The notes beneath the pieces were generated by a model. That model was not told the origin of the DNA. It saw only the letters and a list, made by a program, of their open reading frames with translations, and did not search any database. The position numbers were made by a program, and so were the translations under genes. From Polaromonas naphthalenivorans CJ2 (lineage in GTDB: Bacteria; Pseudomonadota; Gammaproteobacteria; Burkholderiales; Burkholderiaceae_C): a stretch of 21,611 nt of DNA. Every line of letters starts with the position of its first letter. Positions within the stretch are counted from its first letter, which is position 1. Shown one piece after another: positions 1-21,611 of the stretch. The stretch is from positions 1-21,611 of the forward strand of contig NC_008762.1 of assembly GCF_000015505.1 (NCBI RefSeq), given 5' to 3'.

Positions 1-1119
1 ACCAAGCCCTCAGCCCACCCCAAAGCCCGCAGCCCACGAAGTTCTAACCCGCCAAAAGCCGACCGGATTGAGGCGATTGATCTGTTTTGTGGTGCGGGCG
101 GCCTGAGTTGTGGCTTAAAAAAGGTAGGCGTGCGTGTGGTGGCCGGGATTGATGTGGATGCGGCCTGCCAATACCCCTACGAGGCCAACCATCGTGGCGC
201 AAAGTTCTTGCTACAAGATGTGACCACTCTGACAGGGGCCGACTTGGAAGCACTTTGGAGCCCTACGTCAGTGCGGTTGCTGGCGGGCTGCGCTCCGTGC
301 CAGCCTTTTTCAAGCTACGCCAACACAAAGGCGTCTTCTGAAAATGACAAGTGGGGCCTGCTTTACCAATTCGGGCGTTTGGTGACTGAAACCAAGCCGG
401 ATCTAGTGACCATGGAGAACGTGCCGGGCCTAGCTGCGCAAGCGCCATTCAAAGCATTTTTGCACACACTCAAAACCTTGGGCTATAGCATTGAATATGC
501 GGTACTAAACGCGGCTGACTACGGTGCTCCACAACAGCGCAAGCGCTTGGTGCTGCTGGCATCTCTGCTAGGCCCAGTGCAAATGCCTGCAGCTACGCAC
601 CCGGGGTCGGCCAACTGGGTGACGGTGCGCAAAGCGGTTGGTGCCTTGCCGGCCATTGGCGACGGCGAAGCATCCGCTCACGACCCTTTGCACAGGGCGG
701 CGGCTCTTTCAGCTTTGAACCAGCAGCGCGTGCGTGCTTCAAGGCCTGGCGGCACTTGGCGCGATTGGCCACCTGACTTGGTGGCCGAGTGCCACCGAAA
801 GGCCAGCGGACGGCATTCGGCCGGCGTTTATGGGCGTATGGAATGGGACAAACCTGCACCCACCATGACCACGCTGTGTATCGGATATGGCAATGGGCGT
901 TTTGGACACCCGCAACAGCACAGAGGCATTTCTCTGCGCGAGGCGGCAATCTTTCAGTCATTCCCAACCAGCTACAAATTCGTGAAACCGGGTATGCGTG
1001 TGTTGGCCAAGCCGCTAGCGCGACTTATCGGAAACGCCGTACCGCCTAAGCTAGGGGAGGCGGTGGGGCGGGCGTTACAGGCGGCGGTACGTTCGCGCGG
1101 AGGTACAACCCGCGTTTGA
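1..1119 (+). CDS. DNA cytosine-5 methyltransferase (Dcm-like)
   Basis: Transfers a methyl group from S-adenosylmethionine to C5 of cytosine in a specific DNA site. The frame is open from base 1. Motif I (DLFCGAGG) is encoded at 79-102, the catalytic Pro-Cys of motif IV (GCAPCQPFS) has its Cys codon at 298-300, then follow ENVPGL (motif VI), QQRKRLVLL (motif VIII) and GNAVPPKLG (motif X). All core motifs are present, so the enzyme is probably active. The target site cannot be read from sequence. An internal ATG at 130 would remove motif I, so it is not the start. If the window is circular, the start is the ATG at 21609-21611, giving 373 aa, a normal family length. The gene faces the HEPN/DUF262/repressor operon, and its last 74 bp overlap the HEPN gene on the other strand. 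It is probably the modification partner of that operon. Confidence 0.95.
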   Translation, partial: TKPSAHPKARSPRSSNPPKADRIEAIDLFCGAGGLSCGLKKVGVRVVAGIDVDAACQYPYEANHRGAKFLLQDVTTLTGADLEALWSPTSVRLLAGCAPCQPFSSYANTKASSENDKWGLLYQFGRLVTETKPDLVTMENVPGLAAQAPFKAFLHTLKTLGYSIEYAVLNAADYGAPQQRKRLVLLASLLGPVQMPAATHPGSANWVTVRKAVGALPAIGDGEASAHDPLHRAAALSALNQQRVRASRPGGTWRDWPPDLVAECHRKASGRHSAGVYGRMEWDKPAPTMTTLCIGYGNGRFGHPQQHRGISLREAAIFQSFPTSYKFVKPGMRVLAKPLARLIGNAVPPKLGEAVGRALQAAVRSRGGTTRV

Positions 1120-1798
1120 GGTAATTGTCGACGTGATCGACCACACTGACGAGGCAGTTCAGCAGACCGTTAGTATCTCTGTCCACGTCGGCGTACGCCA
1201 GTAATTGCCCGCAATCGCGGAAGCTGACTTCGCCATGGGCTAGCATATTACGGTGGGTCTTGGTGGTCAGTAAGCTGGCATGGCTGAGGTGCGCATCTTG
1301 GCCCTTTTCTAAGCTGGCGAAACCGTAATTCCGGCCGATTTCTCGGATACGCTTGCTGTCCACATTGCCTGAAAGTAGGTAGTTGCTGTAAGCCTTGGCT
1401 CGGGTCTCGTAGTCGTTAAGCCAGTGATCAATGATGGCAGTGCCGCTGGGCACGAGTGCGGTCGTCTCGGGGATGTCGATCTTGACATTTTGAAACCGCC
1501 GAAGGATGTGCAGGTACATTTGCGGATGCAGTTCATCCAGTACGGCTCCACTCTGCTTAACTGTTCTGTGGATGTCGCCGATGAGCTGGGTCATGGTCGC
1601 TTCGACCACGTTGTAGAGCAGCAAATAGGTGTTGGCCTTCAGCGTGTGTGTGAGTTCAATATCTAGCTCTAAAGGAGCAGCCAGCGACCGGGCGTTAAGT
1701 TCCGCCCCGCGTTCAAGTGCTGCTTGCAAAAATGCCAAGTAGGCCCGCACCTCGGTGGCGCGGGCGTTCAATAGCGAGCGACTGAGCGCGGCGGGCAT
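1046..1798 (-). CDS. HEPN-domain nuclease, MAE_28990/MAE_18760-like
   Basis: 250 aa, mostly helical, ending in a proline-rich tail. Residues 183-188 are RNMLAH, followed by GE. This fits the R-x4-H active site of HEPN ribonucleases, close to the consensus of the MAE_28990/MAE_18760 family. HEPN proteins are metal-independent RNases common in toxin-antitoxin and abortive-infection systems. The activity here is inferred. The start codon overlaps the stop of the upstream DUF262 gene (TGATG), implying translational coupling and a shared complex or dosage. The proline-rich C-terminus is encoded on the strand opposite the last codons of the methyltransferase. Family assignment rests on the motif, size and partner gene; no search was possible. 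Confidence 0.8.
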   Translation of the reverse strand: MPAALSRSLLNARATEVRAYLAFLQAALERGAELNARSLAAPLELDIELTHTLKANTYLLLYNVVEATMTQLIGDIHRTVKQSGAVLDELHPQMYLHILRRFQNVKIDIPETTALVPSGTAIIDHWLNDYETRAKAYSNYLLSGNVDSKRIREIGRNYGFASLEKGQDAHLSHASLLTTKTHRNMLAHGEVSFRDCGQLLAYADVDRDTNGLLNCLVSVVDHVDNYLKRGLYLRANVPPPVTPAPPPPLA

Positions 1799-2982
1799 CA
1801 GACCAGCAAGCTGAGTTGTTCGGCCTCAGGCGGTGCGTCTAAATTGGCGCTGGCCTCGACCTTGGCAGTATCCCCGTCGTATTGGACAGGGCGACCGATC
1901 AGGTTGTCGCGCACAAAATGAATTCGGTTGACCACCTTGGGTCGCGAGTTGCTGGCATCAGAGCGAGTGTGGTGTATGAACTCTTCGCTTTCAAGCCAGG
2001 CATTGACATTGATTGGCACCAGCGCAGGCTGTTCACGCAGGGCCAGCGTGGTACCCACCGACAAGCACTCAAAGCGAATACGGGCCACAGTGTTGGTGGT
2101 GGGCGACTTTCTGAAGCCGTTGGGCATTTGGCCTTGTACGAAAGCCAGCATGGTTTCAAATTCTTGGACGCTAGCTTCTTCAGCTTGCCGGTCATCGGCT
2201 TGGTTGCGGGCCTTCAGGTAGTCGGTCAGGAAGCTATCAACACGCTTGGTGAAGCCGGCATAGTTGTCGCAGTATGCGAAGTAGCGCAGCACCAGTTCAA
2301 CATGTTCTGCCCGATCAGCCAAGGCCTTACTTACAGGGCATAGTATTTTGAACAGCGGCATCTTGGCGCAGGCCTCTATCACCCTCAGGAAGGACCCATC
2401 CAAAGTTCCGCGGCGCGTCTCCATGCTCTCCAGCTTGGTGCCACCGCTGTTAAGTCGATCAAACATTTCACGCCGTGCCTCGTTGTCGGCGCGGCGCGTC
2501 AGCTCAATGACGCGCACTGTCTTGCGCTTAAAGCGCAGTTGCCCGGGTGGCGAGAAGTCTTGCAGTTTCAGGCCAATGGCCAGGTCCACCTTCTGCAACT
2601 GCTCAAGCGTGAGTTTGTTTTGTAGAAAGTTGACCAGTGTGCGCATGCGCTGCGAACCATCAATGATTTCAAGGTGGCCAGCGCGGGGCCCATCGGGCAC
2701 GTCGGCCACGAACATATAAGGCACTGGGAGATTCATCAGCAGCGATTCGATGAAGCGCGACTGCTGCCGGGCTGTCCATATAAATTCACGCTGGTAATCT
2801 GGGATGAAGACCTCAGCCTCATCGGTTTCAAGGCCCTTGGTGAACTTGTCCACCAGCACTTCGATAGGGTATTCGCGGATCTCGAAGTCCGTTACCTTGC
2901 GGATAGCATCAATCTGCTCGTCAAGCCGATCGGCGAGAACTTTTGGGTCGTCGATTGGCAACGGTAACGTTTCTTTGGTCAT
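1798..2982 (-). CDS. DUF262-domain protein (ParB/sulfiredoxin-like NTPase fold)
   Basis: 394 aa. The N-terminal half carries the diagnostic DUF262 motifs: IPDYQREFIWT at residues 60-70, DGSQR at 108-112 and FDRLNSGGTKL at 174-184. This is the fold of GmrS and SspE, which bind or hydrolyse nucleotides to control DNA cleavage. In those systems a DUF1524 HNH nuclease domain follows; no HNH-like His/Asn pattern is visible in residues 200-394, which look helical. The nuclease role may instead be taken by the coupled HEPN protein just downstream. It lies 27 bp below the repressor gene on the same strand, so repressor-DUF262-HEPN is probably one transcript. A role in sensing modified or foreign DNA is inference. 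Confidence 0.88.
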   Translation of the reverse strand: MTKETLPLPIDDPKVLADRLDEQIDAIRKVTDFEIREYPIEVLVDKFTKGLETDEAEVFIPDYQREFIWTARQQSRFIESLLMNLPVPYMFVADVPDGPRAGHLEIIDGSQRMRTLVNFLQNKLTLEQLQKVDLAIGLKLQDFSPPGQLRFKRKTVRVIELTRRADNEARREMFDRLNSGGTKLESMETRRGTLDGSFLRVIEACAKMPLFKILCPVSKALADRAEHVELVLRYFAYCDNYAGFTKRVDSFLTDYLKARNQADDRQAEEASVQEFETMLAFVQGQMPNGFRKSPTTNTVARIRFECLSVGTTLALREQPALVPINVNAWLESEEFIHHTRSDASNSRPKVVNRIHFVRDNLIGRPVQYDGDTAKVEASANLDAPPEAEQLSLLV

Positions 2983-3009
2983 AGTGGGCGCCTGTGGAGG
3001 GTGAGAGCG

Positions 3010-3705
3010 TCAGTGTTCCCGCAGCGTCAGCCAGGCCAGAACGCGACCGCAGATGGTCAGTTCGTTCTGAGCGACCAACTGCGGGTCGTGCTTGTCATTG
3101 TCTGAGCGCACATGAATCTTGCGAGTGGCGAAATCGGCAGACAGGCGTTTTGTCATCACGGCTTCGTTAAATAGGACGACATATATACCATCGGTCTCGA
3201 AACGCCGGCAGTCGGCATCAATGAAGGCCAGATCTCCCTCATTGATAGTTGGGCTCATGCCATCGCCGGCTACCGTGACGGCTCGGACAGAGTCAAGCTG
3301 CACTCCCAAGTGTTTGCGTGCCCAGGCTTCCGCCACGTCAATGTGGCCAAGTACCATAGAGAAGCTCTCCGACTCACTGCCCAAGATGGCGGAGGGTCTG
3401 GCGTTAAACCGCGAGATGCGTACGTGTCCGTCTTCGATCTTTGGCACAGGCTGTTTTGATGGGTCAAAATCGCGTGGTAACTTATAGCCATCCTTGACCA
3501 GAAGCTGCCAAGGTCGGAGTTTGAAGAAGCAAGCAATCTGGACAAGATTGGCTAGCTGTGGATTCCCAGACGCGTACTTGATCCTACCAAGCGTGCCATC
3601 AGCAACATCCATGCGCCGAGATAGCTCCATACGCGAAACGTCTGGATACCGCTGCAGCAAGGCGGTCAGATTTTCGGCGAGCGTTTGCTTGATGTCTTTT
3701 AGCAT
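3010..3705 (-). CDS. HTH (XRE/CI-like) repressor with S24 peptidase-like domain
   Basis: 231 aa. Residues about 8-68 form a CI-type helix-turn-helix. Residues about 115-228 form a LexA/CI S24 domain, with the Ser of GDGMSPT at 151 and the Lys of AVMTKRL at 186 as the catalytic dyad. No obvious Ala-Gly cleavage site is seen in the linker (residues 80-120), so SOS-type self-cleavage is uncertain; the domain may serve mainly for dimerisation. It is first in the operon with DUF262 and HEPN and probably represses it. A palindrome lies directly upstream. The ribosome-binding site is weak, which is common for repressors translated from near their transcription start. Confidence 0.88.
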   Translation of the reverse strand: MLKDIKQTLAENLTALLQRYPDVSRMELSRRMDVADGTLGRIKYASGNPQLANLVQIACFFKLRPWQLLVKDGYKLPRDFDPSKQPVPKIEDGHVRISRFNARPSAILGSESESFSMVLGHIDVAEAWARKHLGVQLDSVRAVTVAGDGMSPTINEGDLAFIDADCRRFETDGIYVVLFNEAVMTKRLSADFATRKIHVRSDNDKHDPQLVAQNELTICGRVLAWLTLREH

Positions 3706-3716
3706 TTATCTGCTAG

Positions 3717-3740
3717 TTTATGAAATAAATTTATCATAAA
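3717..3740. promoter_or_regulatory. Probable repressor operator/promoter
   Basis: TTTATGA and TCATAAA form a perfect 7-bp inverted repeat around a 10-bp AT-rich centre, 12 bp upstream of the repressor start. TATGAT on the minus strand within it could be a -10 box, so binding would block transcription. The position and symmetry suggest autoregulation of the repressor-DUF262-HEPN operon. A second motif, ATGCTAGC, lies further upstream at 3764-3771 and recurs in the methyltransferase promoter. Confidence 0.5.
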
Positions 3741-3997: not shown

Positions 3998-4507
3998 TCA
4001 TTGAATTCTCCAGATTGGCTCCATGAATTTGTGCCAGGCGCGATAACCAGCCATGAGCGCCCGTGCATCGGAAAGCGCATGGTGTGGGGGCCAGTCTTGG
4101 GTATAGATGTGGTTCTGCGCCCGCTCAAAAACCGGGTGCGTGATGGTGTAGCTGTTCAGATACAGTTGTTTGGCAAAGTCACCGGGCGGCTTGCTGTGAG
4201 GTCGCCCAAGCATGGCGACGGCCAGCAAGTACCAGTCCCACTCATAATCAAAAATAACGGTGGCGGGTTCTGGCAACCGGGCGAACCAATCTCGCACGCG
4301 GTCGGTTAGCGCTGGACGGCTACAGGCCGCACCAGGCACACGGCCCAGCAAGGGCTGCACGGTTTCCCGCACAAAGTCGCTACAGTCGGCCTGGCAATAG
4401 TCGGTTCGCTCGGCATAGAATTCCCGGCCATCCTCACTCACAAGCGCAATGCTGATTAGGTCGGGCCGGACAAATTCGGTGAATTCGGTGTCGAGGAAAA
4501 CTAGCAT
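3998..4507 (-). CDS. 3'-5' exoribonuclease, Rv2179c-like (DEDDh)
   Basis: 169 aa. The DEDDh exonuclease residues are visible: D6 and E8 in DTEFTEF, an Asp in IFDYEWD (about residue 87), and H143 with D147 in HHALSDARA. The short length and compact arrangement fit the Rv2179c-like family, which trims RNA 3' ends with two metal ions. Its start overlaps the stop of the HigA-like gene by 7 bp, indicating translational coupling. Its place in a partition operon is unusual. It could act on plasmid RNA, on host RNA as part of a toxin-like module, or simply be a passenger. Confidence 0.8.
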   Translation of the reverse strand: MLVFLDTEFTEFVRPDLISIALVSEDGREFYAERTDYCQADCSDFVRETVQPLLGRVPGAACSRPALTDRVRDWFARLPEPATVIFDYEWDWYLLAVAMLGRPHSKPPGDFAKQLYLNSYTITHPVFERAQNHIYTQDWPPHHALSDARALMAGYRAWHKFMEPIWRIQ

Positions 4508-5346: not shown

Positions 5347-5972
5347 TTGGCGTACTCCATCAGCTCGGCTGCAACAGCCTCGATCTCGGCAACGGCAGGA
5401 CCGGCAGGATCAATTTCAAAAATAGCTTGACCCTGGGCCGCAGCTTCGGCAAAAACAACCCGCTGAGCCACGCTGGCATCCAGGACGCGGATCGGGTAAG
5501 CAGCAAGGGCATCGCGCACGTCGCGCCCTATTGCCGTATTTGTAATTTTGCGATTTACCACAAACACGGATTTGATATTTTCTTTATATATGTGAGCCTC
5601 CGCGATCAGCTTCACAACTTCTTCGGCCGCCCAGATGTCATAAGGGCTCGGCTGGACCGGGATGACAACGACATCAGAGGCCATGATGGCGGACCGGGCC
5701 AGGTCGGTGACTCGTGGCGGGCCATCGATGATGATGTGGTCATAGCCTTGGCCAAGTTGGCTGATTTCCTTGTGGATGGTGGCGCGGGGGAATCCGACAA
5801 CAGAAAAGAGGGGCGGTCCTTGACGGGCTGCGGCCCAATCGAGGGCGCTTCCCTGGGGGTCGGCGTCGATCAACAGGACACGCGCACCAGCGCGTGCAAA
5901 GCAGGCCGCAAGGTTGACGCTGAGGGTCGTTTTGCCGACGCCCCCTTTTTGATTCAATACACCAAAAATCAT
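5343..5972 (-). CDS. parA: ParA partition ATPase (type Ib)
   Basis: 209 aa from the chosen ATG, starting MIFGVLNQKGGVGKTT, with the deviant Walker A motif at residues 8-16, LLIDADPQGS (Walker A') and the IIIDGPP Walker B region. An upstream in-frame extension exists, but this ATG has an AAAGGTG site and gives the family's usual start. ParA binds DNA non-specifically in its ATP form and moves plasmid copies bound by its RHH partner. No N-terminal HTH is present, so regulation is expected to come from the RHH protein at the upstream repeats. First gene of a six-gene operon. Confidence 0.93.
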   Translation of the reverse strand: MIFGVLNQKGGVGKTTLSVNLAACFARAGARVLLIDADPQGSALDWAAARQGPPLFSVVGFPRATIHKEISQLGQGYDHIIIDGPPRVTDLARSAIMASDVVVIPVQPSPYDIWAAEEVVKLIAEAHIYKENIKSVFVVNRKITNTAIGRDVRDALAAYPIRVLDASVAQRVVFAEAAAQGQAIFEIDPAGPAVAEIEAVAAELMEYAK

Positions 5973-5980
5973 GATTTCAC

Positions 5981-6013
5981 CTTTTACTGTTTTGTATTTT
6001 TGTACTTTTACAG
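5981..6013. promoter_or_regulatory. Repeats upstream of parA: operator/centromere candidate
   Basis: CTTTTACTG at 5981-5989 and CTTTTACAG at 6005-6013 are direct repeats with 24-bp periodicity. TTTGTA occurs twice between them. The AT-rich repeat block directly upstream of parA is where RHH partners bind as operator and partition site in type Ib systems. The binding assignment is inferred. Confidence 0.45.
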
Positions 6014-6170
6014 AAAACCTTAAATAAAGCAATCAACCTCGTCCCTTGTCTTTGCCTTTCCCTGGCTCGGGTACATGCGGCAGGCAAAGCGCTCCATTGC
6101 GGCCTATGACCACCCTGTCGCCCGGCATGGGATAGGTGGCTACGGCTTGACCATGGTCGAGGACAGCACC

Positions 6171-7070
6171 TTAGACCTGCGCCTTAGCGGCCTTTGGTTT
6201 TGCACCACGCAACTCAGCGGCTTCCTCGCTCGATTTCTTGGCGGCTGCTTGAGCGGTGGCCACGGCCTTTTTGGCCTCCTCCAGTTCACGCGCCGCGCTC
6301 TCTAATCGGGCTTGACCGGCTTGGACAATGGCGTTTGCATTCAGCAGCTCACGCGCTACGGCGTCGGTTCGTGCTTCGGCCTTGGTCGTCCTGGCGTCGG
6401 CTTCTGTGGCCCGCCGGTCGGCGGCTTCCAGCTTTGCAGTCAACACGGCGGCTTGCTGCTCGGCTTGTTGGCGGGCTTGCTGATCTGTCTCCAGTGCGAT
6501 GCGTAGGCGCTCGATTTCGGCTTGCAGTCCTGGTACAGCTTCCAAGCGTACTTCGGCGCGGGCCAGTGCGGCGGCGGTGGTTTCTTGACGCTGGCGCTCG
6601 GTCATCAACTCTTGGCGCAAGGCGGTTGCGCTGGCTGTGGCCTGTTCGGCGGCGCGGTGCGCGTCAGCCTGAGCGGCTTTCAACTGCTCGTCAATGGAGG
6701 CGGCTTTGGTTTGAGCTGCATCGCGCTCGGTCGTCAGCACGGTGATTTGCTGCTCGGCGGCGGCTTGGGCTTCTGAGATTGCTTGCAAATCATCGGCGGC
6801 GGCGGCGGCGCGTTCTTCGGCTGTGGCTGCGGCTTGTTCGGCCACGCGCTGCATCTGCACCTTGATCGCATCGGTGATGCGGTGGTCCAGCTCGGTATCG
6901 GCAATACGCACGACAGGACGGCCCGCCTTCCACTCTGCAAGCAGTTTCAGGACGGCATTAGGGCTACCGCCCCCGATTGCGGCTGTGACGGCTCTCACGC
7001 TGGCCCGCTGGCCTGCGGCTTGAAGTGCCTCGGCGGCGGTTGCGACCGATTCAAAAGTAACGATTGCCAT
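6171..7070 (-). CDS. kfrA: KfrA-like DNA-binding coiled-coil protein
   Basis: 299 aa. The N-terminal about 70 residues form the KfrA-type DNA-binding domain (ATAAEALQAAGQRASVRAV...GGGSPNAVLKLLAEW). After it a very long Ala/Glu/Gln/Arg-rich coiled coil runs almost to the end, closing with a basic tail. KfrA proteins of broad-host-range plasmids repress their own promoter, form filament-like assemblies and aid stable inheritance. Repeats directly upstream are probable operators. The frame stays open for 45 more codons after the TAA stop. Confidence 0.9.
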   Translation of the reverse strand: MAIVTFESVATAAEALQAAGQRASVRAVTAAIGGGSPNAVLKLLAEWKAGRPVVRIADTELDHRITDAIKVQMQRVAEQAAATAEERAAAAADDLQAISEAQAAAEQQITVLTTERDAAQTKAASIDEQLKAAQADAHRAAEQATASATALRQELMTERQRQETTAAALARAEVRLEAVPGLQAEIERLRIALETDQQARQQAEQQAAVLTAKLEAADRRATEADARTTKAEARTDAVARELLNANAIVQAGQARLESAARELEEAKKAVATAQAAAKKSSEEAAELRGAKPKAAKAQV

Positions 7071-7074
7071 GATG

Positions 7075-7142
7075 TTATCCTTTTGTTATGTATTATTTAT
7101 AATAATAACGTAATCATAACAGATAACATTATCTTTTGTTAT
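7075..7142. promoter_or_regulatory. kfrA promoter/operator repeats
   Basis: TTATCCTTTTGTTAT (7075-7089) and TTATCTTTTGTTAT (7129-7142) are near-identical direct repeats. GTTAT/ATAAC half-sites lie between them, including ATAACAGATAAC. The block is AT-rich, abuts the kfrA start and fits KfrA autoregulation. Confidence 0.55.
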
Positions 7143-7157
7143 TTTTAGAAATTAAAT

Positions 7158-9791
7158 TTAGAGACCTTGGCCCCTGCTGTTTTCCCGCGCAAGCTCGCGC
7201 TCGCGCTCTTTATGAGGCTGCAAGGCGGTTTCTAGGCGCTTTTCCGCCACGGCCAGGCTCTCGTACCGCTCAAGCTGCTTGGCGTGCTGTGCGGTGTTTT
7301 TGCGGTTACTTGCTGTCACGGCCTCGGCTTCCTTGGTCACACGCTGCTCGGTGGTCAATGCAAGCTCGCGCTTGATGCCTTCGGCGGCTTTGGCCCAGCC
7401 TGTGGCCTTGGCCGATAGATCGGCGCTGCGCTCATCCCATGCCTTGCCTTCGGCTCCTTTGAACATGCCTGTCGGGCGCTGCGTCCCGGCGTGTGTATCG
7501 CGCTCTGCGCATGCCTTGGCGGTGATTGCGTCCCAAGCGCAAGCGCCTGTTTTTGACCCAATCCCACTCACGTACCAAGGCTCCGGGTCGCCCCGTTTTG
7601 CGGCGGCGGCGTTCTGCTCGGTTTTGACCTGGTGCGCGATTGCTGCCCGATTCACTTCCTGCGGGGCCACTGCGCCCAGCGCTTTTGCGGCTTCATTTCT
7701 AACGCCCCCAAAAGCATCCATGCACGACTGCAACTCTGCGCTGTCATTGGCTTTGATCGCTGCGTCGATGCGCTGCACAAGCTCGCGTTCACGGTCTGTG
7801 ACAAGCCCCTTCATATCCAACTCCAACTCAATCGGCTGCGCCTCCGGCGCGGGGTCCAGGGTCTGGGGTCCAGAATCCAGAGACACGGCTTCGCCGGGGT
7901 TGTTGGATGGAGAATGCAGGGGGGCGGGTTCCTTGGATTTCTCAAGCTGTGCAGCGGCTGCGCGGTCGCGCTCGGCGCGGGCGGCTTCCCGTGCTGCTTC
8001 GTACTTCTGCTGCTGCAACTGCTCGCGCAGTTTGTCAAGCTGCGGGTCTGCAAACTTGCAGGTCAAACCGTTGGCCACGGCCACGGCCACGGCGTTTTTC
8101 TTGAATTCGTCAGAGCCGGTGAGTTCGAGCGTTTGCCCGAATTTCTGTTGCGCGGTCGCAAGGGCGGCAGCAATGCCACGGTCTGATTTCAAGTCCAAAA
8201 TCTGAATGCTTCGGCCCTCATCTCTGAAAACGTCTTTTTGGGCAAGTTGGTAAGTGATGTGCTTGCGTGCATCGACCGTGCTCGTGAGCGCTCTGAGTGT
8301 GCTTGCCACTGTGCTCGTTGCTGTGCTTCGCTCCGTGACTGGCAGGACGTGCAGGCTGACAATTTGCGGCTGTTCTTTCCACTGTCGATACATCGGCAAC
8401 GGCTTGTATTGGGCCTGCAACGCTTTGCGCTCGGCTCGGTGTCGCTCGGATAGCTCCAGCTTTTCGGCGGCTTGCAGGGGTGCTAACAGGCTCTGCAATG
8501 CGTTGCGCTGTGGGCCTTTGTCTTGCCAATTTCCGCTCAGTGCTTCGGTGCGCTCTGTTTTGAGCTTCGCCAGGAGCGCTGCCCGCTCGGCTCCGTGGCG
8601 TTTCTGTAGCTCGATGGTGTCGTGCGTTTTGGCCGCTTTATGAGCGTCACGGATGGCAATGTATTCATTCCAACCGGGTTGCCCTTGACGCATTGGCTGC
8701 GGGGTTAGGCCGGTGCTGTTGTCTCGTCCGGCAACCCGTCGCAGTCCGTCAACAGGTCGTCCACCAGGACATGCATCAACGTGCAGTACACCCTTGCGCC
8801 GGGTTTGACCTTGATTTTTAAGGACTGCCAGATTGCATTCGGACAGTTTGCGCAGACCGTTTGTGGCTGTATCTCTAATCGCAGTAGGGTACGGCTGCGG
8901 GGTGTGATGGTGGTATTCATTGGGTTTAATTTCCTGGGGTGGTTGATAGGGGCCGAAACGTTTTTGTAAATTTCCGAAGCTGGCTTTTCGGTCTATGTCA
9001 CTGGCCTTGACTCCAATGTCACCGACATAAACTTTTGCGCCTGAACCTTCGCGGCGATATTCAAGCCCGGCTGCTGCCATTTGGGTGTGCAGGTCTTTCC
9101 AACTGCTGGCCTTTGCAATGATCGGGGCGGCGTTTTCAATGCCGATACGCTGGGCCGATTTCTGCCCGGTCTGAATTTCCATGTCTTGCGCGGGGCCAGT
9201 TGGCTCTAGCGGCTTGTCTTTGGCTTTGTTGACTGCTGGCCGTTTGGTCTTGCTATCGGCGAGCAACTCGCCGTTGTCGTTGGTTTGATACCGTGCGTTC
9301 TCGACACTTTTCCAGCCCTGCTTTTTTTCGATGATTGCAATGGCTTGGTGGGCAGCATTGAGTTGAAACCCTTTGTTGATTTCGATAACCTTAAGCGTGT
9401 CAGGATGCACGCGGTTAACAGCAATGTGAACGTGCAGGTTCTTGGTGTCGTCGTGCAGTCCCCAGATCACCTGGTGGCCGGTCAGACCGCAATGGCCAAC
9501 AAACATTTTCACGGCTTCGCGCACTTGGTCAACGCTCGGGCGCTCGTTCGGTCGCCAGCTTAAAACCCAATGGTCTATTGGGTCTTTAGACCTGACGGCA
9601 TCTTGAGCCAGTGCAATCATTTCGGCAACGTGGCCTTCGTGCGTGTCAGTCAGAAAGTTGTCGGCTTCGTGGTGGATGCATTTCTCCATGCCGTTTTCAC
9701 GCTGCGGTTCAACAATATAGTTTGCAACGCCAGCAACACGGGCGGATTTTGTACCTCCCGCTTTTTTGTTGGGTATCTTTTTGACGATCAC
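7158..9791 (-). CDS. traI: MOBP relaxase, TraI/IncP-like, with LPD7-like domain
   Basis: 877 aa. Nicks one strand at oriT, stays covalently bound through a tyrosine (probably Y25 in GVANYIVEP) and pilots the strand. Motif III is HDDTKNLHVHIAVNR at residues 113-127, the metal-binding histidine triad of MOBP relaxases. A central segment around residues 470-610 resembles the LPD7 domain often fused to these relaxases. The C-terminal third is long, charged and probably coiled. The start overlaps the stop of the TraJ-like gene by 4 bp. The length is within the range of large MOBP relaxases. No transfer-pore genes are in the window. Confidence 0.93.
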   Translation of the reverse strand: MIVKKIPNKKAGGTKSARVAGVANYIVEPQRENGMEKCIHHEADNFLTDTHEGHVAEMIALAQDAVRSKDPIDHWVLSWRPNERPSVDQVREAVKMFVGHCGLTGHQVIWGLHDDTKNLHVHIAVNRVHPDTLKVIEINKGFQLNAAHQAIAIIEKKQGWKSVENARYQTNDNGELLADSKTKRPAVNKAKDKPLEPTGPAQDMEIQTGQKSAQRIGIENAAPIIAKASSWKDLHTQMAAAGLEYRREGSGAKVYVGDIGVKASDIDRKASFGNLQKRFGPYQPPQEIKPNEYHHHTPQPYPTAIRDTATNGLRKLSECNLAVLKNQGQTRRKGVLHVDACPGGRPVDGLRRVAGRDNSTGLTPQPMRQGQPGWNEYIAIRDAHKAAKTHDTIELQKRHGAERAALLAKLKTERTEALSGNWQDKGPQRNALQSLLAPLQAAEKLELSERHRAERKALQAQYKPLPMYRQWKEQPQIVSLHVLPVTERSTATSTVASTLRALTSTVDARKHITYQLAQKDVFRDEGRSIQILDLKSDRGIAAALATAQQKFGQTLELTGSDEFKKNAVAVAVANGLTCKFADPQLDKLREQLQQQKYEAAREAARAERDRAAAAQLEKSKEPAPLHSPSNNPGEAVSLDSGPQTLDPAPEAQPIELELDMKGLVTDRERELVQRIDAAIKANDSAELQSCMDAFGGVRNEAAKALGAVAPQEVNRAAIAHQVKTEQNAAAAKRGDPEPWYVSGIGSKTGACAWDAITAKACAERDTHAGTQRPTGMFKGAEGKAWDERSADLSAKATGWAKAAEGIKRELALTTEQRVTKEAEAVTASNRKNTAQHAKQLERYESLAVAEKRLETALQPHKERERELARENSRGQGL

Positions 9792-13195: not shown

Positions 13196-16100
13196 CTAAC
13201 CCACGTTGACCCAAAGGCTCGCGCTTTGGGCGTGGACCCGTCCCAGGACGACCAGCGTCTCAAGGATGGAGGGAAGGCGCTCACGCCAGCGGCCACGGCT
13301 GCTGAAGTGCGCGGCGATGGCGTCGAGGTCCATGGCGGTTCCGGTTTGGGCCAGTACGTCAGCCACGGCCTTGACCTGTTCGGGCATGCTGGCGGGCCAG
13401 GGCTGGGCGGCGCTGGCTTTCAGGCTCTTGGCTTTCTTTCCTTTGGCGGTGAGGGCTGCTTGCTCGGGCATGGCGATGGCTGCTTGCTGGCCCTGGCTCG
13501 GCGCCTGGAACGCGGGACGCAGCCAGCGGACAGTGCCCTTGGCTTCTTCGGCTGTGCGTTGGGCGTTCAAAGCCACCAGACGCGCCAGGAGCGCGTCTGG
13601 TGCAGCGGTGAAGGGGTAGAGGTCGCTCCAGCCGTAAGAGGCCAGCACGGCGGCATCCAGCTCGTCGTGAAGGCTGCGCAGCACGCCGACGAGGCCATGC
13701 TCGTGCAGCGTCTTGTCCTTGGCGGTGAGTGCTTCACCTGTGCGGAGCTTTTCCAGCACGTTGTAGAGCCCTGTAAGGGTCACGTCGGCATGCGCGGCCT
13801 GCTGCTTCTTGCGGTGGGCGTCGATCTGTTCGGCCAGCTGGCGGATTTTGTCGGTCAGCGCGGGCGTGAGGCCAGTGTCTGCTGCGGGGAAAGGGAAGGT
13901 TTCAAAGCAGCGGGATTTAACGTACACCGGATCATTGCCCACTCCTAACCAACTCCCGGTAGCCAGCGCCCAAGCAGTATGCAGGCGGCTGGACAGCACG
14001 CCCAAACAAAACGCATCGTCCAAGGCGATGGCAATCAGCTTGTTGTCGGGCAGGATGCTCGCGTCGAGGAACTGGAACAGGCGGTGTTTGGCGGTTTCGA
14101 CTGTGGCGATGTAGCGGGGTAGGCCGGTGAGCTGTTTGCGCATCTCCTGGCGCGGCTTGCCGTGGAGCCACCACAACTTCGCATAACCGGCACCGTCTTT
14201 GCTGGTGCCTTTTGCATCGCGTTCAGGCTTGACCCGATCCAGCAGCCACTGGTACACGGCGGGGTATTGGCTGCGCAGTTCGTCAGCGCTCAGGCCAAAG
14301 GCGTCGATGATTTGGACGCCGCGCGGCTTGTCGGTCAGGTCGCGCCCATTACGGTAGTCGCGGATGATGGCTGGCTGGCCCAGGGCGGCGGCTTCGGCTG
14401 GCGTCACGATGAACCCCGCCCCGTGCAGCTTGACGCCGGGCGATGAAATGCCCGACATGGCTTGCAACGACACGGCAGCCGTCACATTCACCCCTACGCT
14501 CAAATCGGCATGAATCACGCCCCGGCGCTCATCCAGCGTCACGGCCACTTCCCCATCCTGGCCCGGCGTTTCGCTGGTCACGGTCTGCAGGCGGCCTTCC
14601 CCGGCTCCCGGCTGCAGCACCGTCATGGCAATGCGCACGGCAGCGCCATCGGCACTATCGACCCACGGATGGTCGGGCACGGCAAAGGCCAGTGCGGTGG
14701 ACTGGCCGAGCGCGGCCTGAACCACACGCCGGTTGAAGGTCTGGCGCAGGCTGTTGGTGGTGATCAGGCCCATGCGCTGGGCCTGGCCGGTTGACACCAG
14801 TCCAGCGGCACGCGACCACCAGAACATGACGAAATCGGCGCTGTCGGGCACCTGGGGCCACGCCTGGCGTAAGGCTTCGACGTAGCCATCGCCCAGCGCG
14901 GCACGCATGGGGGACGCGCCAATGAACGGGGGATTGCCGACGATGAAATCCGCCGCTGGCCAGTCGGCCTGGCGTGCGCCGCTGTAGCGCCATTGCGGCA
15001 CCTGGGCGGCCTCGTCGGGCACGGACTCGCCCGTCACCGGGTGGATTTTCAGGGTCACGCCATCCCAGCGCGTGAGCGGCTGGCCGTGGGCATTGAGGGC
15101 CGGGGCGCGGCCATCCCAGGCCAGCACGGCATCGCGGTTTTCAATGTTGCCGTAGTTGTGAACGACCGGCTCAGCGACACCGGCATTGCCGAAGGTGCGG
15201 ATCTGCCATTGCAGGTAGCCGATCCAGAGCACCAGTTCGGCCAGGGCGGCAGCGCGCGGGTTGAGTTCGATGCCGCGCAGCTGCTGCAGCGTGACGGTTT
15301 CGCCTTCCAGCGTGAGCTTGGCCTGGGTGTCGCCCAGCGCGTCCAACTGGTTGAACACCTCGCCTTCCAGGCGCTTCAAGTGCTCCAGCGTGACGTAAAG
15401 AAAATTGCCGCTCCCGCAGGCGGGATCGAGCACGCGCAGGGTGCAAAGGCGGTGGTGAAAGCGCCGGACCTCGGCGCGGGCTTCGGTCAGCTTGGCCTTG
15501 CTTTGCTTCTTGCTGTCGAGTTCGGCGGCTTCATTGACCAGCACCAGGGCAGCGGCCTGGACGTTGGCCCATTCGGCGCGCAGCGGCTCCAGCACGGCGG
15601 GCAGCACCAGGCGCTCGACATAGGCGCGCGGCGTGTAGTGGGCGCCCAGGGCGTGGCGTTCGGCGGGGTTGAGCGCGCGTTCCAGCAACGTGCCAAAGAT
15701 GGCAGGCTCTACTTCGCGCCAATTGGCTTTGGCCGCTCCGATCAGCAAATCAATTTGCGCGGTCGTCAGCAACAGGCTGTAGCCGGGCGTGTTCGCGCCC
15801 TTGAACAGCTTGCCGTTGAACTTCAGGATGTTCCTGGCCAGCGCGCCGGAGAAGCCGCCCCGATCCATGTCGGCCCACAGCGCCTGCAGCATGCTCTGCA
15901 AGGTGGCAGGCGCCTCGCGGTGGGCTTTGAGCAGGCCAAAGAAGGCACCCTTGGGCAGCAGCTCCACATCCTCGGCAAACATGCTGAACAGGGCGCGTGT
16001 GAGGTAGGCGGCTACGTTTGCGGCGGAATGCCTGGCATCTTCCAGCGACTTGGCCAGCCGGGCCAGCTGGGCAGACACGATGCCGGTGACCTCGGCGCTG

Positions 16101-16660
16101 ATGCGGGCAGGGTCAAGCTGGTCGGGATTAGTCCAGATCAGGCGCAGGCGCTCGCGCACCTCGGGCTTGAGCAAATCTGCCAGCGCGATACGGTGGCTGC
16201 GGGGATCGGGGAAGGGGATGTAGGTGCCGCCGCTGCGGCTGAACTCGGCATACACCTCGATGACGGTGCCCACGTCGATGACCAGCAAAAACGGCGGTCG
16301 CCCTTCGTCTGCAGGCAGCGCGCGGGCGTAGTTCTGCGCCTGGGCGTGGGCTTCGAGCAGGTTGCGGCTGAAGCGTTCGGTGCCCACGGAGGCCTTGAGT
16401 TTTTTTGATTCGGCGATAAAGCAGCCGCGCCGGTAGCAATCGACCCGGCCAGCGCTGCTGGTGCCATCGGCATAGCTGAAGGTCACCGGGCGCTCGAACA
16501 TGTATTCCTGCGCGGGCGTGGCGTGCGGCCGGGGCACGCCGAGCAGTTCGCACAGGTTGATGATGAAGCTTTGAGAGGTGGACAGTTCGCTGGCGGTCAC
16601 GCCTTGCCACAGGGCTATGAAGGCTTCTGGGGTGTTGTCCAGCTTGTTGTTATTTTTCAT
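13196..16660 (-). CDS. MmeI-like type IIL restriction-modification enzyme
   Basis: 1154 aa, one chain with nuclease, methyltransferase and specificity parts. Residues 74-86 (D-x9-ESK) fit a PD-(D/E)xK nuclease. LGAHYTP at 338-344, DPACGSGNF at 412-420 (SAM binding) and NPPF at 576-579 (catalytic, adenine-N6) mark the methyltransferase. A target-recognition region and a C-terminal winged-helix-like extension follow. Such enzymes methylate one strand of their site and cut at a distance, and need no separate methyltransferase. It is longer than MmeI itself (919 aa), mainly through the C-terminal extension. The stop codon TAG lies inside the GCTAAC duplication of the adjoining element, so the insertion occurred at the gene's end without truncating it. 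No strong ribosome-binding site is seen. Confidence 0.88.
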   Translation of the reverse strand: MKNNNKLDNTPEAFIALWQGVTASELSTSQSFIINLCELLGVPRPHATPAQEYMFERPVTFSYADGTSSAGRVDCYRRGCFIAESKKLKASVGTERFSRNLLEAHAQAQNYARALPADEGRPPFLLVIDVGTVIEVYAEFSRSGGTYIPFPDPRSHRIALADLLKPEVRERLRLIWTNPDQLDPARISAEVTGIVSAQLARLAKSLEDARHSAANVAAYLTRALFSMFAEDVELLPKGAFFGLLKAHREAPATLQSMLQALWADMDRGGFSGALARNILKFNGKLFKGANTPGYSLLLTTAQIDLLIGAAKANWREVEPAIFGTLLERALNPAERHALGAHYTPRAYVERLVLPAVLEPLRAEWANVQAAALVLVNEAAELDSKKQSKAKLTEARAEVRRFHHRLCTLRVLDPACGSGNFLYVTLEHLKRLEGEVFNQLDALGDTQAKLTLEGETVTLQQLRGIELNPRAAALAELVLWIGYLQWQIRTFGNAGVAEPVVHNYGNIENRDAVLAWDGRAPALNAHGQPLTRWDGVTLKIHPVTGESVPDEAAQVPQWRYSGARQADWPAADFIVGNPPFIGASPMRAALGDGYVEALRQAWPQVPDSADFVMFWWSRAAGLVSTGQAQRMGLITTNSLRQTFNRRVVQAALGQSTALAFAVPDHPWVDSADGAAVRIAMTVLQPGAGEGRLQTVTSETPGQDGEVAVTLDERRGVIHADLSVGVNVTAAVSLQAMSGISSPGVKLHGAGFIVTPAEAAALGQPAIIRDYRNGRDLTDKPRGVQIIDAFGLSADELRSQYPAVYQWLLDRVKPERDAKGTSKDGAGYAKLWWLHGKPRQEMRKQLTGLPRYIATVETAKHRLFQFLDASILPDNKLIAIALDDAFCLGVLSSRLHTAWALATGSWLGVGNDPVYVKSRCFETFPFPAADTGLTPALTDKIRQLAEQIDAHRKKQQAAHADVTLTGLYNVLEKLRTGEALTAKDKTLHEHGLVGVLRSLHDELDAAVLASYGWSDLYPFTAAPDALLARLVALNAQRTAEEAKGTVRWLRPAFQAPSQGQQAAIAMPEQAALTAKGKKAKSLKASAAQPWPASMPEQVKAVADVLAQTGTAMDLDAIAAHFSSRGRWRERLPSILETLVVLGRVHAQSASLWVNVG

Positions 16661-18289: not shown

Positions 18290-18595
18290 CTAAGTCTCTT
18301 TTTTTCTCGTGGGCCACTGCTGGCGGGCGTGGAACACGTTCACCACCTCCACCAGCGTCGGCGTCTCCCGATAGAGCACGATGTAATTGCTCCTGGCCAC
18401 CAACTCACGCATGCCCTTCACGCGAGGCGAAGGTTTGTAGAGCTTCGGGTGATCGGGCAACTTTGCCGCCTTTTCCTCAATTTCGTCCTTGAGTTCTTGT
18501 GCCGCGTCGGGGTTGTCTTCGGCGATGTACTCGACAATTTCCACCAGGTCATCAATCGCCTGCTGACGCCACTCAAGCTGCGGCTTTGGCTTCAT
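18290..18595 (-). CDS. parE: ParE/RelE-family toxin
   Basis: 101 aa. The segment WRQQAIDDLVEIVEYIAEDNP is truncated-barrel ParE helix 1, followed by LPDHPKLYKPSPRVKGMRELV and YIVLYRETPTLVEVVNVFHARQQWP, the usual ParE ending. ParE toxins inhibit gyrase and kill cells that lose the plasmid. The start overlaps the upstream partner by 23 bp on the same strand, so the two are made together. Confidence 0.88.
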   Translation of the reverse strand: MKPKPQLEWRQQAIDDLVEIVEYIAEDNPDAAQELKDEIEEKAAKLPDHPKLYKPSPRVKGMRELVARSNYIVLYRETPTLVEVVNVFHARQQWPTRKKET

Positions 18596-19037
18596 GCTTC
18601 TTGCGTTTCGTGTCGATCACTGCTTGAACGCTGGACATGGCCTGCTCGTGCGAAACGTTGGGCCGCGTGTCGGCCAGCGACGCATCGGCTTGCTGCTGCA
18701 TCCGCTTGGTTTGCGCTGACGCTTCAAAGGCGCTGCGCATGCGCTCGGATGAATCTGGCCGCACCCGCGTGGTCTTGAGCGCTGCGGCGTCAAAGTTGGC
18801 CGCGTTGACGTGGTATTCACAAATCCCCACGTCCTTGAGATAACCCACGAGCGTTTCAAACTTGCGAAACGTCCGCACGGCTCCGCGCCTGGCGGCCAGT
18901 GCGCGCTCGGTCATGCCGTACTTGACGATAACCCCCCATCCGCCGGGGTGGCCGATCACATCCGCGCCGCGAACGGCTCCGGCTTCGACGAGCCGCTCCA
19001 GGGTGAGATGGTCGATGGTATTTGCTGTAGTGGACAT
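18573..19037 (-). CDS. Probable antitoxin of the ParE pair, with extra N-terminal domain
   Basis: 154 aa from the ATG at 19037, which has a GGGA site; upstream in-frame ATGs at 19049 and 19109 lack one. The C-terminus (SLADTRPNVSHEQAMSSVQ) resembles RelB/ParD-type toxin-binding tails. The N-terminal about 90 residues (LERLVEAGAVRGADVIGHPG, then GWGVIVKYGM) form a beta-rich domain I cannot place. Antitoxins are usually 70-90 aa, so this one is nearly doubled. A symmetric CGGTNA/TNACCG sequence upstream (about 19089-19105) could be its operator. Confidence 0.65.
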   Translation of the reverse strand: MSTTANTIDHLTLERLVEAGAVRGADVIGHPGGWGVIVKYGMTERALAARRGAVRTFRKFETLVGYLKDVGICEYHVNAANFDAAALKTTRVRPDSSERMRSAFEASAQTKRMQQQADASLADTRPNVSHEQAMSSVQAVIDTKRKKHEAKAAA

Positions 19038-19166
19038 TGAGTTTCCCATTTTGGTGTAGAAATAACAACTACAATTATAACCAAGTAACGGTAATTTGGT
19101 AACCGACATTCGTTAATATTTCTTCTCTACTCAACATAACGCCTGTTTTCAGTGTGCCTGGTGGCT

Positions 19167-21608: not shown

Positions 21609-21611
21609 ATG

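Follow-up and report, generated by a model that had tools for sequence, protein, structure and literature searches.

Why should a plasmid place the gene for a C5 cytosine DNA methyltransferase (MTase) against a gene pair that encodes a DUF262 protein and a predicted HEPN ribonuclease (RNase)? The question is raised by contig C6 (NC_008762.1) of Polaromonas naphthalenivorans CJ2, the whole of which, 21,611 bp, was analysed and is here called the window. The pair and a C5 MTase make up a module that recurs across bacteria, plasmids and phages. For the window, we see an even chance that the three genes form a plasmid-borne, modification-gated abortive restriction module, in which the MTase would lay down 5-methylcytosine (5mC) as a mark of self, the DUF262 protein would be the sensor and the HEPN RNase the effector.

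The gene trio and its recurrence

The genes concerned and their critical elements are the following.

1..1119, + strand: C5 cytosine DNA methyltransferase, 373 aa including the start codon (PF00145, E 4e-55)
21609..21611, + strand: ATG start codon of the methyltransferase, joined to base 1 over the circular junction, in frame and followed by TKPSAHPKAR
1046..1119: convergent 3' overlap of the methyltransferase and HEPN genes, 74 bp
1046..1798, - strand: HEPN protein, MAE_28990/MAE_18760-like predicted RNase, 250 aa (PF18737, HEPN_MAE_28990)
1235..1252, - strand: codons of the HEPN active-site motif R183-N-M-L-A-H188, placed from the sequence and its translation
1798..2982, - strand: DUF262 protein (GmrSD_N, ParB/Srx-like nucleoside triphosphatase, NTPase), 394 aa (PF03235, 5e-26)

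At base 1 the MTase frame is still open; read across the junction, it gives MTKPSAHPKARSPRSS...; the MTase of the nearest relative (L010) has the N-terminus MTKPSALPKVRNPRKP (MTKPSALPKVR), MTKPSA being common to both. Because the ATG at the window end reads in frame into base 1, as in the L010 N-terminus, the replicon is taken as circular, the window as a whole plasmid and the MTase as complete. An earlier description made from the letters alone (the sequence-only reading) had placed a complete C5 MTase beside a DUF262–HEPN pair. All three genes are indeed intact, with the correction that the MTase start codon sits across the window ends, and the motifs it had picked out (IPDYQR, DGSQR, FDRLN and RNMLAH) are all present. 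It had also noted that DUF1524 is missing and that HEPN stands in its place. This is borne out by a Pfam scan of 19 window proteins, in which no DUF1524 match was seen at 1e-3 in the DUF262, HEPN, MTase or S24-like protein (for the last see below), and the HEPN protein matches PF18737 at 43.5 bits, the cut-off being 26.8, as well as phrog_3846 (1e-42). A PADLOC scan of the same four proteins matched the MTase to MTase_II (2.5e-85) and DrmMII (2e-81), and the DUF262 protein to NsnA (4.8e-47) and PD-T4-2_A (5.7e-36); the latter protein also matches phrog_2598 (2e-109). Literature matches listed for the names NsnA, NsnB and NsnC were only unrelated uses of these letters. When the sequences of solved structures were searched, three DUF262 sequences were matched (E 3e-5 to 5e-4), and no relative was found there of the HEPN or the S24-like protein.

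Conservation at the predicted active sites is strict. Across 123 of 123 complete trios (94 after removal of near-copies), Y62, E66, R183, H188 and G189 of HEPN are invariant, as are Y63-Q64-R65, D108-G109, Q111-R112, F174, R176 and N178 of the DUF262 protein, and this despite HEPN segments that are on average just 25–32% identical. The DUF262 and HEPN genes of the window overlap by 1 bp, and they overlap or lie no more than 20 bp apart in 79 of 88 loci. Overlapping 3' ends of MTase and HEPN genes are likewise common, being found in 71 of 111 convergent trios, near-copies counted.

Co-occurrence was assessed by searching with the DUF262 protein profile in one genome per species (at least 567 confirmed matches) and in the viral contigs of IMG/VR (97 confirmed). 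From each scan the 80 top-ranking loci were kept, so that both samples lean towards close relatives. A HEPN match follows directly after DUF262 in 80 of 80 genome loci and 80 of 80 viral loci, some of the HEPN frames being cut or broken, and the coupling of the two genes is above chance. An adjacent C5 MTase is present at 54 of the 80 genome loci; contig ends truncate a further 7, and at the other 19 none adjoins. Among the viral loci, many of them near-copies, the corresponding figure is 75 of 80 (73 convergent, 2 upstream), with 3 cut and 2 lacking one. That most close relatives should carry an adjacent C5 MTase had been fixed beforehand as the result on which the claim of linkage would stand or fall, and most of those examined do carry one. 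Eight annotated phage or plasmid records add six trios, one pair alone (L006) and one set of broken frames at a record end (L009).

Placement of the MTase varies. Genome loci show it convergent and downstream in 35 cases, downstream on the same strand in 1, upstream on the same strand in 13 (L069, with an over-extended frame, was assigned to this class by hand) and upstream but from other C5 sub-families in 5: L028, L031, L043, L052 and L072, the last cut directly after HEPN so that its downstream side is unseen. Other C5 sub-families likewise supply the MTase at two of the 75 viral loci, L142 and L169. The three gene arrangements imply repeated change when placed on a quick tree of 112 DUF262 rows, five times to an upstream same-strand MTase and four times to an upstream MTase of another C5 sub-family. 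Pair and MTase have thus been repeatedly rearranged, yet they are found mostly together. Vsr-like frames, recognised by eye from the sequence, adjoin the pair in L047 (1836-2246) and L052 (7644-8063).

A less biased sample is provided by 274 genomes of the window's own class. In four of these, one being that of the window, HEPN adjoins a DUF262 protein matched at E <=1e-100, and three of the four (again counting the window's) have an adjacent MTase. Distant DUF262–HEPN pairs lacking such an MTase occur in two other genomes, and in five more the DUF262 proteins are of other kinds, no HEPN match being seen in the stretch fetched. When 61 relatives were searched, the sole match was the window's own genome, as expected for plasmid cargo. 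At the level of the single species Escherichia coli, 3 of 5,426 genomes hold the DUF262–HEPN stretch of the L002 type over at least 80% of its length.

The methyltransferase sub-family and its predicted site

In the MTase (METHYLTRANSFERASE), the target-recognition region nearly equals the core in conservation (identity 0.50 vs 0.52 over 94 trios). It contains a sub-family signature, around PGGTWRDW...CH..SG, of which the window's enzyme carries PGGTWRDW. Trio MTases were selected at a profile E <1e-100, a threshold that leaves out seven loci with other C5 MTases. Recognition regions were then compared for MTase pairs matched at a core identity of 0.42-0.52, using enzymes whose neighbours had been tested. 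Identity was 0.48 between trio MTases (2881 pairs), 0.50 between trio and DISARM-linked MTases (414 pairs) and 0.48 between trio and GHKL-linked MTases (1164 pairs). This matched comparison replaces a first, looser contrast (core 0.35-0.55; 0.48 for trios and 0.22 for other C5 MTases), in which the mean core identities were unequal (0.48 vs 0.40). What we claim from these alignments is that the recognition region is well conserved and common to MTases that accompany different effectors; we do not claim that it stands out by any definite factor.

The range of those effectors emerges from a scan with the MTase profile, which gave 93 loci, 80 viral and 13 from genomes of the class. The signature is present in 56 of the 93, accompanied by DUF262 and HEPN in 28 (window included), by HEPN only, at a contig end, in 1, and by neither in the stretch in 27; three further loci have the pair with an MTase lacking the signature. 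Where no DUF262 gene lies in the stretch (28 signature MTases), 17 are near a GHKL/MORC-like gene, the matches being weak for L212 and L216, 6 are near DISARM genes, 3 have Vsr/NERD only and 2 have none of these. Ten neighbours examined with Pfam comprised five HATPase_c_3 proteins, two Vsr, one SNF2-type helicase, one NERD and one with no match. PADLOC identified the two GHKL proteins tested as 'Type II restriction enzyme' (1.6e-91 and 3.8e-35) and the L175 neighbour as DrmA/DrmD. Signature MTases stand beside a GHKL/MORC-like ATPase gene at L195, L196, L204, L236, L244, L256 and others, on viral contigs and in genomes.

Two DISARM operons contain the DUF262–HEPN pair itself, directly after DrmMI and together with such an MTase. 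The first, on one contig of Alcanivorax (L018), has the order MTase-DrmD-DrmMI-DUF262-HEPN-DrmA-DrmB, with the pair at 5938-7817. The second lies on a single viral contig, of which L095 and L176 are two stretches, and reads MTase-DrmD-DrmMI-DUF262-HEPN, with HEPN cut by the contig end and the pair at 4905-6482 of L095. It is because of these two operons and of the other neighbours of the MTase sub-family that the trio can be tied to restriction. No description of an MTase type common to DUF262–HEPN, DISARM and MORC-type loci was found in the parts consulted of the open-licence literature on the trio, DISARM and HgiDII/MORC.

Two characterised specificities bear on the site. An MTase bearing the signature and 86% identical to that of L176 (P0213) has the source name 'modification methylase HgiDII', although such names are usually automatic; the likeness to HgiDII is one of signature and of this name. 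The literature describes M.HgiDII as a 5mC MTase, characterised by experiment, with the site GTCGAC (PMC5867850). For the DISARM system of Serratia SCBI the motifs ACAC(mA)G and YMT(mC)GAKR are given (PMC9142583), of which the second must belong to its C5 enzyme. GTCGAC and YMTCGAKR have only TCGA in common and, since both cytosine sites contain it, the window MTase probably marks a TCGA-centred 5mC site. Its link to YMT(mC)GAKR is one that we infer, the Serratia SCBI methylase not being among the records listed. The DISARM of B. paralicheniformis methylates CCWGG (PMC5957327; also PMC12926258), but a Dcm-like specificity of this kind was set aside, the recognition region of E. coli Dcm being unlike that of the trios (identity 0.06-0.12).

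Mechanism and competing readings

The mechanism that we propose has two models. In class I DISARM, unmethylated DNA is the stronger stimulant of the DrmAB ATPase (PMC9142583); in PrrC-EcoprrI, a modification system holds the HEPN RNase. The MTase, of the HgiDII and class I DISARM-like sub-family, would place 5mC on resident DNA at one fixed site, probably centred on TCGA. The DNA sensor would be the DUF262 protein, acting as an NTPase that detects incoming phage or plasmid DNA without the mark and, upon meeting it, activates its HEPN partner; the predicted RNase would then cut RNA, and the infected cell would be stopped. By this analogy the HEPN RNase would be gated by methylation. If so, a methylation mark controls an RNase, and restriction and abortive infection are joined in a three-gene cassette of plasmids, prophages and chromosomes.

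Several findings weigh against this mechanism. The first concern the strict dependence on an MTase that the sequence-only reading had implied, which is not supported. On the DUF262 tree the state without MTase arises in two changes, as two clades, L018 being labelled apart. One comprises 12 cyanobacterial rows within a clade whose remaining 11 rows, cyanobacterial too, bear the MTase; the other comprises L006, L078, L088, L157 and L159. Moreover, for 17 of the 19 genomes without an adjacent MTase, the assembly, which may be incomplete, yields no MTase of the sub-family at all (no match, or a best E of 1e-48); the remaining two are L018, with its DISARM-embedded pair, and L086, with a broken DUF262 gene and such an MTase elsewhere in the genome. 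Among 168 loci, the MTase is broken beside an intact pair in two (L002, L023), and the DUF262 gene is broken beside an intact MTase in two others (L019, L041), equal counts that give no sign of the one-sided loss expected under strict restriction-modification (R-M) addiction. Pair-only clades and broken MTases show that the pair can persist without the mark; it may then lie silent, answer to some other cue or rely on a different MTase.

Inheritance points the same way. Rank correlations of identity are 0.59-0.70 between DUF262 and HEPN segments, and only 0.07-0.16 between these and the MTase core and 0.14-0.24 between these and its recognition region. Judged from such identities, MTase and pair do not share a history; the co-inheritance expected under classical R-M was not found, and this counts against a fixed trio. 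Site avoidance is uninformative. GTCGAC occurs once in the plasmid where 7.0 are expected, with five other palindromes ranking lower, but its avoidance is no stronger in trios than in control loci with other C5 MTases: it ranks 3 of 64 in the controls (29 vs 46.1 expected), 24 in viral trios (56 vs 75.4) and 14 in genome trios (106 vs 150.4). As for the recognition region, identity among C5 MTases without the signature is 0.29 at the same matched core identity (33 pairs), but between trio MTases and these it is 0.43 (388 pairs), and the control is imperfect, being defined by its lack of the signature and small when tightly matched, so that the contrast is indicative only. Finally, DISARM is reported to restrict phages without its methylation sites (PMC9142583, a source on class I DISARM).

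Two side observations may be recorded here. The matches listed include cyanobacterial pairs without an adjacent C5 MTase at L053-L056, L059, L060, L070, L073-L077, L079, L087 and L089. The L002 allele, whose MTase is that of a P2 prophage, is annotated as frameshifted in a complete E. coli genome (L296, 4355-5400) and is intact in another (L297) with the same pair.

The most serious competitor, unlikely in our view but deserving weight, holds that the pair is a self-contained abortive system sensing another cue, such as a phage protein or modified or unusual phage DNA, with the MTase a passenger that shields the mobile element from common host restriction of the same specificity. The pair-only clades, the separate history of the MTase and the loci with a broken MTase and an intact pair (L002, with its allele L296, and L023) all suit it, as does the absence of the pair from the stretch at 27 of 56 signature MTases, one of which (L176) has it further along the contig. 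So, too, does PD-T4-2, listed under both DUF262 and HEPN (PMC10952713) and, according to Vassallo et al. 2022 (PMC9519451), active in defence in the strain it comes from. A merely useful MTase, however, need not adjoin the pair in three arrangements, nor be swapped there for other C5 MTases, and the presence of the pair in two DISARM operons also counts against this reading.

Toxin-antitoxin logic, with the HEPN toxin silenced through binding by the DUF262 protein or the MTase and released when host expression shuts off, seems improbable. HEPN toxins are common (PMC3710099) and the overlap of the DUF262 and HEPN genes would fit, but the DUF262 protein, conserved, NTPase-like and with invariant motif residues, is no simple antitoxin, and the conserved recognition domain of the MTase would be left unexplained. 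We think it very improbable that the system is type IV-like, the DUF262 protein being triggered by modified cytosine as in GmrSD/BrxU, HEPN replacing the nuclease and the MTase serving as a decoy or anti-restriction device: the DUF262 family does include restriction enzymes for modified DNA (PMC10952713), yet an adjoining MTase would make the host's own DNA a target, and the association is nevertheless strong. Least probable is a DUF262 protein that itself nicks DNA, as other ParB/Srx proteins are described to do, and serves alongside the MTase as restriction nuclease, with HEPN as accessory or back-up, since HEPN active-site residues are kept in all 123 complete trios, even if a 'ParB nuclease' reading is in print (PMC3710099) and the PADLOC REase_II model PDLC03418 matches 11 of 11 DUF262 members (best 2.4e-12).

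Returning to methylation gating, a broader idea may be ventured, possible but rather doubtful: that HgiDII-like MTases write one fixed, TCGA-centred 5mC 'password' and no fewer than three unrelated effectors read it (DISARM, DUF262–HEPN and the MORC-like ATPase restriction enzymes), that mobile elements shuffle effectors around this common mark, and that DUF262–HEPN is an RNase alarm for its loss. Were this true, a mark shared by DISARM, MORC-type and DUF262–HEPN loci would explain the swapping and stacking of modules, and a single prediction, 5mC in a TCGA-centred site, would hold for many uncharacterised loci.

Plasmid context and known systems

Beyond the trio, the replicon has the gene set of a mobilizable plasmid according to Pfam: a RepA-type initiator (PF10134), a relaxase, a NikA-like protein, ParA, KfrA, a resolvase, a ParE-type toxin and an MmeI-like R-M protein. 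A Polaromonas plasmid matches 23% of the window at 82% identity. The features to be mentioned are these.

3010..3705, - strand: S24-like repressor (PF00717, 5e-15)
3717..3740, upstream of the repressor gene: candidate operator, perfect inverted repeat TTTATGA-N10-TCATAAA (7-bp arms), one of 15 pairs in an AT-rich stretch and without a chance control
3998-4507: frame matching phrog_2259 'Rnase H' (6e-20), with no Pfam match at 1e-3
13196-16660: MmeI-like protein, second restriction-modification gene of the plasmid (PF20464, PF20465, PF20473, PF20466)
18290-18595: ParE-type toxin gene (PF05016), adjoining the unassigned frame 18573-19109

The sequence-only reading had given the system its own repressor. 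An S24 gene does lie upstream, but a conserved S24 repressor as part of the module was rejected: a similar gene is found within 2 kb upstream of DUF262 at only 8 of 168 loci, in a one-sequence search that would miss remote repressors. The protein is probably a local regulator outside the conserved module, presumably acting by repression. Its motif is GDGM, with Gly where relatives with a detectable motif have Ser (GDSM, GQSM, GRSM). We take this Ser to be the catalytic serine of the S24 family, and with Gly in its place the repressor is perhaps incapable of self-cleavage. No sigma-70-like promoter was found in front of its gene.

The trio association has been known since 2013, when a table (Anantharaman et al., PMC3710099) placed the MAE_28990-family HEPN 'in operon with a ParB nuclease and DNA methylase genes'. 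The window agrees with that entry in its HEPN family (PF18737, with R-x4-H) and in its DUF262/ParB-like and DNA methylase partners; it differs in that its methylase is convergent, on another transcript. The table row, as far as that part of the source goes, gives no site, counts or link to DISARM or MORC, and the shared MTase sub-family is what is added here. The parts consulted of PMC3874153, PMC11437467, PMC13092281, PMC12839542 and PMC6329791 contain no description of the trio, and no experimental study of it was recognised among the open-licence full-text papers listed, which is no proof of absence.

Nor can a DUF262 protein with an effector other than DUF1524 be called new, as had been supposed, given this 2013 listing and the existence of PD-T4-2, Menshen and Dazbog, all with DUF262 and without DUF1524 (PMC10952713). 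The proposal of a hybrid between restriction and abortive infection accordingly survives in part: its tie to restriction is upheld by the MTase sub-family's neighbours and the two DISARM operons, while the novelty of the effector, the membership of the S24 gene and strict dependence on the MTase are not supported.

PD-T4-2 itself resembles the window in its component A, to which the DUF262 protein is homologous (11 of 11 members match), though NsnA scores higher. Its component B does not correspond: the window HEPN gave no PADLOC match to PD-T4-2_B, and one of eight relatives matched at E 0.017. Membership of PD-T4-2 was rejected on this mismatch. Furthermore, no methylase is named for PD-T4-2 in the parts consulted of PMC9519451 and PMC10952713. 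GmrSD, BrxU and SspE (PMC10952713) share the DUF262 domain with its DGxQR motif; the window differs in having no detectable DUF1524/HNH, with a HEPN gene and its own C5 MTase instead.

Resemblance through the MTase is seen in two further groups. HgiDII-type and MORC/paraMORC R-M loci (PMC5867850, PMC2292703) have the MTase sub-family with the recognition-domain signature, but their effector is a GHKL ATPase or restriction enzyme, with or without Vsr, in place of DUF262–HEPN, and Pfam found no GHKL/MORC-like family among the 19 window proteins. Class I DISARM (PMC9142583) has the same C5 MTase type beside DrmD and, in the two operons described, the pair as well. The window differs in that no DrmA, DrmB, DrmD or DrmMI was matched in the proteins scanned; for DrmA and DrmB this covers the four proteins given to PADLOC (for the MTase, the best 25 of 61 families) and the 19 given to Pfam, where no fitting match appeared.

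Closest in presumed working is PrrC-EcoprrI, in which a HEPN anticodon nuclease is coupled to a type I R-M system (PMC3710099). PrrC is an ABC-ATPase–HEPN fusion tied to hsdMSR, unlike the separate genes of the window, and beyond HEPN the two are likened by description. In both, a HEPN RNase would stand next to a modification system as a suicidal second line.

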